DNA from: Roseomonas sp.
Lineage (GTDB): Bacteria > Pseudomonadota > Alphaproteobacteria > Acetobacterales > Acetobacteraceae
Assembly (NCBI GenBank): GCA_020249505.1
Contig: JADCFN010000005.1
Coordinates: 1-64,000, forward strand
Direction: 5' to 3'
Length of the DNA stretch: 64,000 nt
Every line of letters starts with the position of its first letter. Positions within the stretch are counted from its first letter, which is position 1. This document shows, piece after piece, positions 6,873-14,678 of this stretch. The notes below the pieces were generated by a model. That model was not told the origin of the DNA and made no database searches. It saw nothing but the letters and a program-made list of their open reading frames with translations. The position numbers were made by a program, and so were the translations under genes.

Positions 6873-7850
6873 TCATGGCCAAACAGGCACGCCATCCAGC
6901 CCCGCAGTTTCTGGCAGACCGCAAATCAGATTCGCATTCTGCACCGCTTGGCCGGCCGCCCCCTTACCGAGGTTATCAACCACGCCCATTGCGATCACCA
7001 AGTTGCGCTCTGGGTCCGCCGCGTAGCTGATGAACGCAAGGTTCGAACCGGTAGCCCATTTGGTCTGCGGTGGCTTGTCGGTCACGCGAACAAAGGCCCG
7101 CCCAGCATAGAAGCGCCGCGCCGCGTCCAAGCACTGGTCCGTGGTAGCGCGGCCTCGGCAGTAAATGGTCGCGAGTATGCCACGGGTCATCGGCACCAGG
7201 TGCGGCGTAAACACCAGCCCGGCCGCGCTGCTGCCACTCAGCCGCTCAATCGTCCTAGCCATCTCGGGCATGTGGGTGTGCTTCAGCAGACCATAGGGCA
7301 CCAGGTTCTCATTGCTCTCGGCATAGCCGAATCTGCTGTCGCCGCCGCCCCGACCAGCGCCGGAAATACCGGTCTTGGCGTCAATCACGATGTTGCCGGG
7401 TTCGATCAACTTATTGGCCAGCAATGGCGCGAGTGCTGTCAGCGCCGCCGCTGGAAAACACCCGGGATTGGCAATGCGAGTCTGACCCGCGATCTGCGCT
7501 GGCCAGATGTCGGCCAAACCATAGACCCAATCTTCAATATAGCGGTGGTCGCCGCCGATATCGACGATCTTCACGCCCTTGGGGACACGCGCCAGCGCCT
7601 CGGCCGAACTGCCCGTAGGCAGTGAGGCAAACAGCACATCGAGCTTCGGGAGCATCGCCGGGTCCCATTTCTCGATCATCATTTCGGCCAGCTTTGCTGG
7701 CGCACCGGGGAAGCGGTCCCCCAAGCGGCTGCCGGCGCTGCCTTCGCCTGCAGCGTAGACCAGTTCGAAAGCCGGGTGGTTTGCGACCAGGCGCATCGCT
7801 TCGCCCCCGCCAAAGCCGCTGATGCCGACAATACCAATGCGAATGCTCAT
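6873..7850 (-). CDS. argC: N-acetyl-gamma-glutamyl-phosphate reductase
   Basis: A 325-residue ArgC. The N-terminal NADP fold starts IRIGIVGISGFGGGEAMRL. The catalytic Cys lies in IANPGCFPAA (about residues 145-154). The domain after it shows AKTGISGAGRGGG, FTPHLVPMTRGILATIYC and the C-terminal GVVDNLGKGAAGQAVQN. It reduces N-acetylglutamyl phosphate to the semialdehyde in arginine synthesis. Its start overlaps the stop of the upstream GNAT gene (ATGA). Both lie downstream of a leader ORF with four consecutive Arg codons and an intrinsic terminator (8421-8601), so expression is very likely controlled by arginyl-tRNA supply. argJ is encoded separately at 13440. Confidence 0.95.
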   Translation of the reverse strand: MSIRIGIVGISGFGGGEAMRLVANHPAFELVYAAGEGSAGSRLGDRFPGAPAKLAEMMIEKWDPAMLPKLDVLFASLPTGSSAEALARVPKGVKIVDIGGDHRYIEDWVYGLADIWPAQIAGQTRIANPGCFPAAALTALAPLLANKLIEPGNIVIDAKTGISGAGRGGGDSRFGYAESNENLVPYGLLKHTHMPEMARTIERLSGSSAAGLVFTPHLVPMTRGILATIYCRGRATTDQCLDAARRFYAGRAFVRVTDKPPQTKWATGSNLAFISYAADPERNLVIAMGVVDNLGKGAAGQAVQNANLICGLPETAGLDGVPVWP

Positions 7851-8395
7851 GATGGTTTCCTATTGCTGGAGTGCTCGTTGCCTGCGGCGTCGAGGCGCTT
7901 GCTCATGTATACGGTCGCACCGAACTGCGGGTGCTCTTCCTCGCGATCAACCCGATAGCCGAGCCTGCCGTAGAGTCGGAGATTCTCGGCAAACCGCGCG
8001 TTGGTGTAGAGCCGCATCTCGCTCAGGTTGAGAGAGCGGGCGACTTCCTCCGCATGCGCCATCAGCGCGCTGCCATGGCCACAGCTCTGATGGGTGGGTA
8101 ACACCGCGACATTGACGATCAGCAGGTGATCAGCCTTAGGCGCCATTTCGATCAGCGCCACGGCTTCGCCATCCACGCGCAGCAGATCTACGAGGTGTTC
8201 ACGCAGTGCCGCATCATAATCGGCGGTCATCGGTCGCGGCTCACGCCCAAGGATGGGCACCCACTTCGCGTAAGCCGCGCGGGTCAATTCGCGGACGGTC
8301 GCTGCATCAGCGGTGATGGCGCGCCGCACTGTTTTGTGCCCGCCATCTTTAGATGCTTGTGAAGGATCGGAGTGGGCGGAGTTGCTGTTTCGCAC
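7847..8395 (-). CDS. GNAT-family N-acetyltransferase in the argC operon
   Basis: About 182 residues. The GTG at 8395 is preferred because AGGAGA sits 6 bases upstream; the frame runs on to a TTG at 8419 without a better site. The GNAT core is seen as VNVAVLPTHQSCGHGSALM (acetyl-CoA loop, with QSCGHGSA in place of the usual Q/RxxGxG/A) and LYTNARFAENLRLYGRLGY. It is the first structural gene behind the arginine attenuator and overlaps argC. That makes a role in arginine or acetyl-glutamate metabolism attractive, but bifunctional ArgJ already supplies N-acetylglutamate. The substrate is unknown. The N-terminal 25 residues are Ser-rich and probably disordered. Confidence 0.8.
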   Translation of the reverse strand: MRNSNSAHSDPSQASKDGGHKTVRRAITADAATVRELTRAAYAKWVPILGREPRPMTADYDAALREHLVDLLRVDGEAVALIEMAPKADHLLIVNVAVLPTHQSCGHGSALMAHAEEVARSLNLSEMRLYTNARFAENLRLYGRLGYRVDREEEHPQFGATVYMSKRLDAAGNEHSSNRKPS

Positions 8396-8420
8396 GGTGT
8401 TCTCCTGTGATCTGGGCAAA

Positions 8421-8453
8421 GAAAAACCCCCGAGGCCAGGGGCTGCGGGGGTT
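8421..8453 (-). terminator. Intrinsic terminator of the arg leader (attenuator)
   Basis: On the minus strand the transcript contains AACCCCCG, a 13-base loop region, then CGGGGGTT running into further Us. This is an 8-bp GC-rich stem with a U tract. It lies 37 bases past the leader stop codon and 25 bases before the GTG of the GNAT gene, exactly where an attenuator terminator belongs. Its 5' arm overlaps bases 8441-8447, which can instead pair with 8530-8536 (7 bp), giving a mutually exclusive antiterminator. Confidence 0.85.
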
Positions 8454-8490
8454 CAAAGATGCGGGCTGATGCCGCCTCGGCGGTGGACCG

Positions 8491-8601
8491 CTACGGGGCG
8501 GACCTCACCAGGGGAGGGGCTTGTCTACACGCAGCCACAGAAGCCGCCGCTGAGAAGCAGCGACGGCGTCGGTTAGCGTTGCGGTGGCGGAGCCCGTTCA
8601 T
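8491..8601 (-). CDS. Arginine-rich leader peptide of the argC attenuator
   Basis: A 36-codon ORF too short for normal gene finding. It begins M-N-G-L and continues RHRNANRRRRCF: six Arg in residues 5-14, including four in a row written with four different synonymous codon choices (CGA CGC CGT CGC). A hairpin with a 10-bp stem (8543-8567; GCCGTCGCTG pairs with CAGCGGCGGC, one G-U) overlaps those codons. Ribosome stalling for lack of Arg-tRNA would open this hairpin, free segment 2 to pair with the terminator arm, and let transcription enter GNAT-argC. No ribosome-binding site is present; the predicted transcription start coincides with the ATG, so the ORF appears leaderless. Confidence 0.8.
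   Translation of the reverse strand: MNGLRHRNANRRRRCFSAAASVAACRQAPPLVRSAP
8543..8567 (-). promoter_or_regulatory. Leader pause hairpin (1:2) over the Arg codons
   Basis: The minus-strand RNA pairs GCCGTCGCTG with CAGCGGCGGC around a CTTCT loop (ten pairs, one G-U). The 5' arm contains the run of Arg codons of the leader ORF, so a ribosome stalled there would block this stem and release the downstream segment (8530-8536) to form the antiterminator with 8441-8447. The pairing is read directly; the regulatory role is inference from classical attenuators. Confidence 0.65.
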
Positions 8602-8608
8602 GAATCAA

Positions 8609-8638
8609 AGCCTAGTGTTACGGCTGAAGGCCTGTCAA
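8609..8638 (-). promoter_or_regulatory. Sigma70-type promoter of the leader-GNAT-argC operon
   Basis: On the minus strand a perfect TTGACA (-35, bases 8633-8638) is followed after 18 bases by TAGGCT (-10, bases 8609-8614). The predicted start of transcription falls at about 8601-8602, the A of the leader ATG. The -10 box is only a moderate match, so the start position is a prediction. Confidence 0.6.
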
Positions 8639-8670
8639 CGCGGATGTGACGCCACGCGCCCCATGGGCAT

Positions 8671-8700
8671 TCACGCCCGCCCGTGACAAGCCTTGAATTT
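8671..8700 (-). pseudogene. Possible remnant of a secA 3' end
   Basis: Minus-strand codons read KFKACHGRA then stop. The true SecA at 9582 ends KYKACHGRV then stop. Over 27 bases, 22 are identical, with an unbroken 13-base core around CACGGGCGGG. Upstream of this stretch the two sequences differ completely. It lies on the far side of the GST gene from secA. The match is short, so chance cannot be excluded. Confidence 0.35.
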
Positions 8701-8744
8701 CCTAGCCCGTATGACCTTTGCCAGGAGGTCGGGCTTATAGCCGG

Positions 8745-9386
8745 CTAATTCCGCGTCTGGTCTGGCACCGTTTCGTCTGGCGAGGGGCGGGCATTCACGA
8801 ATTCTTCCATGCTCTCACAATGGAGCGCGAGGTGGTGAAGCTTCGGATACTTGTCCGCCGGAAACATATCGGGCACGCGCATCTTCATGTAGCCAACAAG
8901 GCAGCCGGCGGTGATATCGGCCTGCGTCATCTTCCCGTCAAAGAACCAAGGCGCGCCGCAGTCATGCTCCAGTTTGTCGAGCGCGGCCGAAATCTGCTGC
9001 ATCAGCCGCTTTTCGAAGTCACGGTTGATGTGCTTGTCGCTGTGGAACAGCCGCTCAAAGGACAGCGCAACGCACTTGTCCATCAATCCATGCGCCAGCA
9101 CCACCGCCTGCAGCACCCTGCGCCGCTCCGGCCCATGCGGCGGCGTCAGCGCGCGGGCTGGTCCCGCCAACTCGTCCAAGTGGTCGATAATGGCGGAGGA
9201 GTCGATCAGCACCTCGCCCGATTCCAGAATCAGCGAAGGTACACGCACCAGCGGATTGATCTTTCGCATCTCCTCCATGTCGCGGAACACCGAGATCGGA
9301 TTGCGCGTGTAAGGCATGCGGTAGTGATTGAGTGTCACCGCCACACGCCGCGCAAAGGGAGAGTCGAACTGGCCAACGAGGATCAT
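8745..9386 (-). CDS. Glutathione S-transferase family protein
   Basis: A 213-residue two-domain GST. The N-terminal thioredoxin-like domain starts MILVGQFDSPFARRVAVTL; the residue pair S9-P10 is where the catalytic Ser or Cys of bacterial classes lies. VRVPSLILESGEVLIDSSAI holds the cis-Pro and the glutathione-binding DS(S). The helical C-domain has KMTQADITAGCLVGY, a normal N-capping box. It would conjugate glutathione to an electrophile or act as a reductase; the substrate is unknown. It stands alone between the arg leader promoter and secA. Short sequences like the end of secA are present on both sides, so it may be inserted cargo. Confidence 0.85.
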   Translation of the reverse strand: MILVGQFDSPFARRVAVTLNHYRMPYTRNPISVFRDMEEMRKINPLVRVPSLILESGEVLIDSSAIIDHLDELAGPARALTPPHGPERRRVLQAVVLAHGLMDKCVALSFERLFHSDKHINRDFEKRLMQQISAALDKLEHDCGAPWFFDGKMTQADITAGCLVGYMKMRVPDMFPADKYPKLHHLALHCESMEEFVNARPSPDETVPDQTRN

Positions 9387-9581: not shown

Positions 9582-12311
<2,730 letters not shown>

Positions 12312-13439: not shown

Positions 13440-14678
13440 ATGGCCGGACATGATATCCCCACCTCACCACTCGCCCTCCCGCTGCCGGAAATGCCGGCGG
13501 TGCCGGGGGTGCGCGTTGCCTCAGGCCGCGCCGCGATTCGCTACAAGGATCGCGATGATGTGACCGTGATGGCCTTCCCTGCCGGCACCTCGGTGGCCGG
13601 CGTCTTCACCCGCAATCGCTGCCCTGGCGCGCCGGTGGATTGGTGCCGCGCCGCGCTGCCCGGCGGTAAGGCGCGTGGCCTGGTGGTGACAGCCGGTAAT
13701 TCCAACGTCTTCACTGGCCGTGCCGGTCGCCAAACCTGTGAGGAAACCGCCAAGGCCGCCGCCGCTATCCTCGGCTGCAAGCCCAAGGAAGTGTTTCTGG
13801 CTTCCACCGGCGTAATTGGCGAAAAGCTGCCGACCGAAAAACTGATCGCCGCCCTGCCACGTATTTTTGATGCGGCGGCGGAACGCGATTGGCAGGGTGC
13901 CGCCAAGGCCATCATGACGACGGACACTTTCCCGAAGGGCGCCATCCGCAAGGCGCGTATCGGAGATACTGAGGTCACCATCGCCGGCATCGCCAAGGGC
14001 AGCGGCATGATCGCGCCTGATATGGCGACCATGCTGTCCTTCCTGGCGACGGACGCGAAAATTCCTGCCGCCGCCTTGCAGGCGCTGCTGAAGAAGGGCG
14101 TTGATCGTTCCTTCAATTGCGTGACGGTGGATTCTGATACCTCCACTTCCGACACGGTGATGGTGTTTGCGACCGGCACCGCCAAGCATCCCCGCGTGCC
14201 GGCGGAAGGCGGCGCGGTACTGAAGGATTTCGCCCGCGCGCTCAATGAAGTGTTGATGGAATTGGCGCTGATGGTGGCGCGCGATGGTGAAGGCGCGCAG
14301 AAGCTGATCCAGATCAATGTGACCGGCGCCACCACGGCGCGTTCCGCGCATCGCATTGCCATGTCCATCGCCAATTCGCCTTTGGTGAAGACCGCGATTG
14401 CCGGGGAAGACGCGAATTGGGGCCGCATTGTCATGGCTGTCGGCAAGGCAGGTGAGCCCGCGGATCGCGACAAGCTTTCAGTCAATGTCGGTGGTGTCTG
14501 GATGGCGCGCAATGGCGGCGTGGTGGATGGCTACGATGAAGCGCCCGTCGTTAAGCACATGAAGGGGCGCGAAGTGGAAATCACCGTGGATATCGGCCTT
14601 GGCAAAGGCAAATCCACGGTTTGGACCTGCGATCTGACGCATGGCTATATTGACATCAATGGCAGTTACCGGAGCTGA
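13440..14678 (+). CDS. argJ: Bifunctional glutamate N-acetyltransferase / amino-acid acetyltransferase
   Basis: A 412-residue ArgJ. It transfers acetyl from N-acetylornithine to glutamate and, in the bifunctional form, also uses acetyl-CoA. The self-cleavage site is plain: KGSGMIAPDMATMLSF, with the new N-terminal nucleophile T197. Other blocks are GNSNVFTGRAG, SVDxDTSTSDTV in the form TVDSDTSTSDTVMVFATG, and GEDANWGRIVMAVGKAGEP. It is probably heteromeric (alpha 1-196, beta 197-412). It follows the PPIase gene by 15 bases and precedes the GNAT-Nudix gene by 17. It has no visible arginine attenuator of its own, unlike argC. Confidence 0.95.
   Translation: MAGHDIPTSPLALPLPEMPAVPGVRVASGRAAIRYKDRDDVTVMAFPAGTSVAGVFTRNRCPGAPVDWCRAALPGGKARGLVVTAGNSNVFTGRAGRQTCEETAKAAAAILGCKPKEVFLASTGVIGEKLPTEKLIAALPRIFDAAAERDWQGAAKAIMTTDTFPKGAIRKARIGDTEVTIAGIAKGSGMIAPDMATMLSFLATDAKIPAAALQALLKKGVDRSFNCVTVDSDTSTSDTVMVFATGTAKHPRVPAEGGAVLKDFARALNEVLMELALMVARDGEGAQKLIQINVTGATTARSAHRIAMSIANSPLVKTAIAGEDANWGRIVMAVGKAGEPADRDKLSVNVGGVWMARNGGVVDGYDEAPVVKHMKGREVEITVDIGLGKGKSTVWTCDLTHGYIDINGSYRS

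Follow-up and report, generated by a model that had tools for sequence, protein, structure and literature searches.

The accessory argC gene of the window (the whole 64-kb stretch of DNA analysed) and the GNAT-family gene in front of it are very probably controlled by ribosome-mediated arginine attenuation, in which a leaderless or near-leaderless mRNA senses charged tRNA-Arg. This kind of control is known; its specificity for arginine and its targets are new. The elements of the leader are listed in Table 1, and from their conserved anatomy we infer the transcript start, ribosome stalling, antitermination and the response to arginine.

Under the proposed mechanism, RNA polymerase would start at or a few bases from the leader AUG and a ribosome would translate the leader ORF. 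When arginine is plentiful, the ribosome would pass the Arg run, the run hairpin would re-form with sequestration of the GGCUGCG arm, and the terminator would form, leaving GNAT-argC untranscribed. When arginine is short, the ribosome would stall on the CGA/CGC/CGU codons and block the run hairpin. GGCUGCG or the neighbouring GCGGC could then pair with the terminator 5′ arm before the 3′ arm is made, and with the terminator pre-empted GNAT and argC would be transcribed.

Table 1. Features of the GNAT-argC leader and its target genes, in window positions.
Feature	Position	Strand	Basis
-35 element TTGACA	8633..8638	(-)	sequence; TTGAC kept in relatives
Candidate -10 element TAGGCT, weak match	8609..8614	(-)	sequence; missed by strict scan
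Leader ORF, 36 codons, MNGLRHRNANRRRRCFSAAASVAACRQAPPLVRSAP	8491..8601	(-)	ATG 8601-8599, TAG 8493-8491; relatives share the ORF
Four Arg codons CGA CGC CGT CGC	8560..8571	(-)	sequence; codon conservation
Hairpin 1:2 over the Arg run, 10 bp with one G-U	8543..8567 (arms 8567-8558, 8552-8543)	(-)	fold
Antiterminator 5′ arm GGCTGCG	8530..8536	(-)	pairs kept across 61 leaders
Antiterminator 3′ arm CGCAGCC, overlapping the terminator 5′ arm	8441..8447	(-)	exact complement of GGCTGCG
Intrinsic terminator with T tract	8422..8453	(-)	terminator prediction and fold; pairing in relatives
GNAT-family acetyltransferase	7847..8395	(-)	Pfam PF00583, E 5.1e-12; GTG start, AGGAGA upstream
Accessory argC, N-acetyl-gamma-glutamyl-phosphate reductase, TIGR01850 type	6873..7850	(-)	289 bits against a cut-off of 233.6; solved ArgC relatives

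The TTGACA/TAGGCT promoter proposed in a preliminary description of this DNA was upheld in its first element, of which TTGAC is kept near -37 in relatives; its second, TAGGCT, is a candidate with a weak match, and a strict sigma-70 scan of positions 7800-9300 returned no promoter. Because the -10 element is poor, the promoter claim is based on the fixed distance of TTGAC in relatives and not on a consensus match. Among 62 leaders (L047 counted), the distance from TTGAC to the start codon was 37 nt in 49 and 35-38 nt in 59; it was 45 nt in one, and two leaders lacked TTGAC. In the window an 18-nt spacer separates the two elements and 7 nt lie between TAGGCT and the leader ATG (8601-8599, minus strand); the transcript is predicted from the sequence to begin, probably, at or adjoining the first codon of the leader ORF. 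A detector requiring TTGA[CT], an ATG or GTG, a short ORF with RRRR and a terminator gave a single match in the 64-kb window, the GNAT-argC leader, and none in order-1 Markov sequence generated from 110 loci, which amounted to 3.73 Mb over both strands.

The conservation of the leader was assessed at 80 argC loci, the best among 215 confirmed relatives, at 86-97% identity. By record title these belong to Acetobacteraceae/Roseomonadaceae, Reyranella, Bosea and Methylobacterium, with a few from Bradyrhizobium, Kiloniellaceae, Cupriavidus, Ramlibacter and others. By blastn, the same leader was present at 56 of these 80 closest argC loci, which argues that it is not a product of chance; no such leader was detected at 23, and one further contig begins at argC. 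Since the leaders are related by descent, such counts are not independent. The GNAT gene lies between leader and argC at only 6 of the 56 leader loci (L032, L033, L034, L036, L063 and L073). Of the GNAT-argC target originally named, argC was upheld, as an accessory copy of the TIGR01850 type, and GNAT applies to that minority.

Alignment A1 contained 61 leaders, namely that of the window, 55 of the 56 blastn loci and five Acetobacteraceae loci; the duplicate loci L001, L002, L003 and L007 were omitted, as was L047, which has lost its ATG. Other exceptions are L090, which lost TTGAC, and L036, which has a Cys inside the run. The 36-codon ORF with its Arg run was present as first described, and the Arg codons were kept across the alignment (59 of 59 ungapped rows at column 31, 60 of 61 at column 34 and 61 of 61 at column 37), with synonymous exchange among CGA, CGC and CGT. 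The longest run contained five Arg codons in 30 leaders, four in 27, three in 3 and two in 1, and in 59 of the 61 rows the run began at codon 10 or 11. Up to and within the run the alignment has four gaps, of 9, 6, 6 and 3 nt, each of which keeps the frame; further downstream the gaps comprise 19 of a single base, three of 3 nt and one of 6.

This loss of frame only after the Arg run bears on a rival reading, in which the conserved stretch would act in trans as a small RNA ending at the terminator and cis control of GNAT-argC would be incidental. The terminated transcript would be discrete, at about 180 nt, and rnTrpL of Sinorhizobium meliloti works both ways according to the available portion of PMC7298713. 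A small RNA of this kind is nevertheless very improbable in our estimation, given the reading frame, the tie of the leader to argC or GNAT, and a mid-RNA that varies more freely (mean pairwise identity 0.64-0.69). Small-RNA action and cis attenuation are not mutually exclusive.

Mean pairwise identity in A1 was 0.49 for codons 2-8 against 0.96-0.97 for region 2, the antiterminator arm and the terminator arms, and reached 0.97 in the T tract. That contrast between functional blocks and codons 2-8 and spacer, both at about 0.5, would not be expected if the similarity merely reflected recent horizontal transfer of leader and argC, without selection on the leader. Transfer would account for argC genes that are 86-97% identical across orders, for gene neighbourhoods that vary among relatives, and for an argC tree that mixes families, many of its forks being poorly supported; as a full explanation of the leader it is scarcely credible. 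Two further cases were recorded separately. In Rhizobiales bacterium 2SD the leader-argC unit occurs twice, on two contigs (L065 and L074). In genome G652, where a full-length leader stands before argC (L117), a decayed one (L122, G652:C1:2590582-2590684) is joined to the 3′ end of an argC, a remnant of a leader-argC cassette.

Of the 269 codons in the longest runs, 137 were CGC, 102 CGA and 30 CGT, and none was CGG, AGA or AGG; all are of the kind that we take to be read by one tRNA-Arg(ICG). In argC itself, across the 80 loci, CGG made up 25% of Arg codons. CGA accounted for 38% of run codons versus 1.6% of argC Arg codons, a bias that would suit a leader sensing slow translation generally (antibiotic stress, slow CGA decoding), with argC and GNAT induced by translation stress. 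Many GNATs detoxify, and one of the only two solved-structure matches of this GNAT, both weak, is a puromycin N-acetyltransferase. The target argC, however, encodes an arginine-synthesis enzyme, and Arg runs recur in differing leader sequences before argC and GNAT. Moreover, a second reading of 30 GNAT loci under a relaxed filter turned up no leader of different composition that had a promoter element as well as a terminator. A general sensor of translation stress is therefore considered unlikely, and the Arg run is read here as a sensor of arginine.

Folding of the leader RNA from 8601 to 8421 beat 200 of 200 dinucleotide shuffles (z -3.65). The 10-bp hairpin over the Arg run, the 7-bp alternative pairing of 8530-8536 with 8441-8447 and the U-tailed terminator before GNAT, all noted in the preliminary description, were each confirmed and recur in relatives. 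The run hairpin had 86.3% of its cells paired over 61 leaders and the terminator 98.5%, and of the seven antiterminator pairs six showed no change in any of the 61 leaders, the other one occurring in 55. The terminator arms are AACCCCCG (8453-8446) and CGGGGGTT (8432-8425), followed by five T's (8426-8422, minus strand), and the terminator ends about 26 nt upstream of the GNAT GTG at 8395. When the upstream regions of relatives were compared, as had been suggested, the Arg codons, terminator, alternative pairing and TTGAC were retained and not lost.

The covariation of helices looked for in the same comparison could not be established. The antiterminator gives none because its pairs are invariant. 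Doubly changed paired cells numbered 12 against 6.2 shuffled in one count and 10 against 5.1 in another, but were mostly at loop-closing pairs and no better than some slid controls, which were equal or higher; the covariation claim was dropped. RNAalifold chose the antiterminator and a different register for the run hairpin, and pairing was tallied on explicit structures rather than on its output. Rows L004, L054, L084 and L094, in which an extra base shifts the terminator 3′ arm by one column, were scored as broken pairs.

In 40 sequences GA(T/C)CGACGC pairs with GCGTCGATC, sequestering the antiterminator arm. In the other 21 this arm can itself pair with CGCA..GC further upstream, with 17-21 of 21 paired at six of seven positions and 8 of 21 at the seventh. 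Judged from these predicted pairings, two clades can sequester the same antiterminator arm by different helices, which would be more telling than the invariant pairs. Rfam gave no gathering-level match in the 64-kb window, T-boxes and known riboswitches included; the four matches at 8380-8760 were to unrelated families and far under gathering scores.

The switch was modelled by folding the transcript at the stage at which the terminator 3′ arm has yet to be made. The first fold test considered the exact helix only, placed the mask at column 54 and gave no sign of a switch (0.19 free and 0.15 masked). After this negative result a measure of the whole terminator 5′ arm was adopted and the ribosome edge was varied by mask column. 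Without a ribosome, the 5′ arm was paired upstream with a probability of 0.35. This rose to 0.64-0.87 with the edge at columns 42-54, exceeding the free value in 50-61 of 61, and was 0.54-0.61 at columns 56-66 and 0.36-0.39 at columns 72-80. Within the fold model, the dependence of 5′-arm occlusion on the ribosome edge is in the direction that attenuation needs. The exact GGCUGCG:CGCAGCC helix was favoured only with the edge at columns 56-66 (0.63-0.87); at columns 42-54 the 5′ arm was occluded mainly by other pairings. The full-length terminator had a probability of 0.76-1.0 under every mask run. As it always wins at equilibrium in the model, any switch must be kinetic. In the trp attenuator the terminating ribosome masks region 2, whereas 37 nt separate the end of region 2 from the stop codon of the GNAT-argC leader, too far downstream for a terminating ribosome to mask it.

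The genes behind the leader were then considered. The GNAT start (GTG 8395) was chosen from the sequence, and the GNAT stop codon overlaps the argC ATG (ATGA). Since argC passes the TIGR01850 equivalog cut-off, the Arg codons of the leader correspond, for argC, to the amino acid that its pathway makes. The same genome has a second argC (L113), of the TIGR01851 type, directly behind rplM and rpsI, which were named by reading their translations. GNAT was also considered as a short N-acetylglutamate synthase; it had no such match in NCBIfam, and this identity therefore remains a guess.

Elsewhere in the window, argJ (13515-14675, plus strand) and the accessory argC are some 5.7 kb apart; upstream of argJ, where the sequence was also read, the detector flagged no Arg leader. 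Beyond the leader promoter on its upstream side, a 26-nt stretch at 8676-8701 is similar to the secA 3′ end at 9587-9612 (88%, blastn), and a glutathione S-transferase-like gene (8745-9386) sits between these stretches; by this similarity, it looks as if the secA end had been duplicated upstream of the leader promoter.

Arg-run leaders were also found before other GNAT genes. Among 49 of the best-scoring GNAT-family loci, two of which have less than 420 nt upstream, 20 had TTGA[CT] 29-41 nt before the start codon of a short ORF with at least three consecutive Arg, against 0.20 predicted from the background rate. Eight of the 20 were of the window's own leader type. The run started at codon 9-11, and a terminator was present in 17 of the 20, the exceptions being L014, L204 and L205. 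The remaining 29 of the 49 loci had no such leader, though L202 among them has NTF2 and a terminator, and the leader of L016, though rich in Arg, never has three of them consecutively. A second leader type, M(C/R)....(A/T)DRRRRR..(R/C)GG(F/L/I), was reached via weak matches of model R1. It precedes an NTF2-GNAT fusion in L013, L021, L144, L210 and L218, with a partial NTF2 in L142, and the fused GNAT belongs to the same family as that of the window. Other leaders, before GNATs without NTF2, namely PARLLRRRR (L031, L206), MSAR..RRRR (L216, L217) and those of L014, L025, L204 and L205, share no obvious sequence. One different GNAT, at L195 (G253:C268 near 2817), has a MVRSARIAERRRRR leader with TTGACG and a terminator, and gave no tblastn match to the window's GNAT.

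In the argC tandems of Reyranella (L041, L053, L086) and of a Rhodospirillales genome (L066), a leader MK(T/P)F(I/A)LLRSRRRRF precedes the upstream argC, which is of the TIGR01851 type where tested (L086), and sits behind TTGACA..AAATAT. No T-tailed terminator was visible after the leader in these four tandems, so the output step may differ.

With model R1, full-length leaders were found in 3 of the 385 class genomes, among them the source genome, and strong ones (E <= 2.4e-21) in 19 of 200 genomes of the family. The weak class matches L118-L121 (E 2e-4 to 7e-4) were judged to be chance after the sequences were read. A pattern of the Arg hairpin occurred in 20 of the 385 class genomes, of which the source genome, G575 and G652 were also found by R1; none of its other class sites was flagged by the detector, the only screen applied. 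In the family the pattern occurred in 47 of 299 genomes, where fetched matches were screened by the detector only.

ArgR (PF01316) was over the cut-off in none of 100 Acetobacteraceae genomes, the source genome included, with one sub-threshold match (E 5.5e-4, G031); of 14 control genomes, 8 passed the cut-off. A regulon survey reports ArgR in gammaproteobacteria and, in its available portion, its absence from the other classes studied (PMC5343134). A broader and rather doubtful proposal is that ArgR-less alphaproteobacteria built leaderless Arg-codon attenuators several times in place of the arginine repressor. Under this proposal the GNAT family, some members of which are NTF2-fused, might be an unrecognised arginine-supply enzyme, for example an N-acetylglutamate synthase of a new kind, and the leader with type-1 argC might move between orders as a self-regulated cassette. 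If attenuation operates as proposed here, it would suggest how ArgR-less alphaproteobacteria sense arginine, would offer a simple searchable architecture (TTGAC about 37 nt upstream of a start codon, with an Arg run near codon 10), and would point to a GNAT family with a testable arginine link.

For Trp, His, Leu and Ilv, ribosome-mediated attenuation is textbook knowledge. By its title, the original paper on Pseudomonas aeruginosa carAB reports the absence of an untranslated region. In the accessible part of PMC4997734, carAB resembles the present system in having a leader peptide before an arginine/pyrimidine gene, with attenuation suggested; it differs in that attenuation is attributed to pyrimidines and arginine control to the transcriptional level. 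Searches of an open-licence library showed no arginine attenuator at argC. A survey of Actinobacteria saw no arginine element in that group and, for arginine genes elsewhere, names T-boxes as the control acting at the RNA level (PMC1262725), and arginine and argC are absent from the main text of a terminator survey (PMC2965389).

Closer parallels are found among leader ORFs. Excerpts on Salmonella speF describe consecutive Arg codons 12-13 of the 34-aa leader ORF34 as an arginine sensor, as proposed here, but speF governs putrescine synthesis via Rho, RNase G and RBS folding rather than an intrinsic terminator before argC (PMC6386406). Like the GNAT-argC leader, uORFC-8-2 of Rhodobacterales is an alphaproteobacterial leader ORF, for which transcriptional read-through on stalling is proposed in the accessible text (PMC8632094); it differs in its cysteine codons and its target, the tRNA synthetase gene cysS. 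The trpL attenuator of S. meliloti (rnTrpL/peTrpL) differs in its Trp codons, 14-aa peptide and trpE(G) target, the sequences having been compared via Rfam only. As an alphaproteobacterial ribosome-dependent attenuator whose RNA, in the portions available of both reports, starts at the leader-ORF ATG (PMC7298713; PMC10117765), it provides a precedent for the leaderless design.
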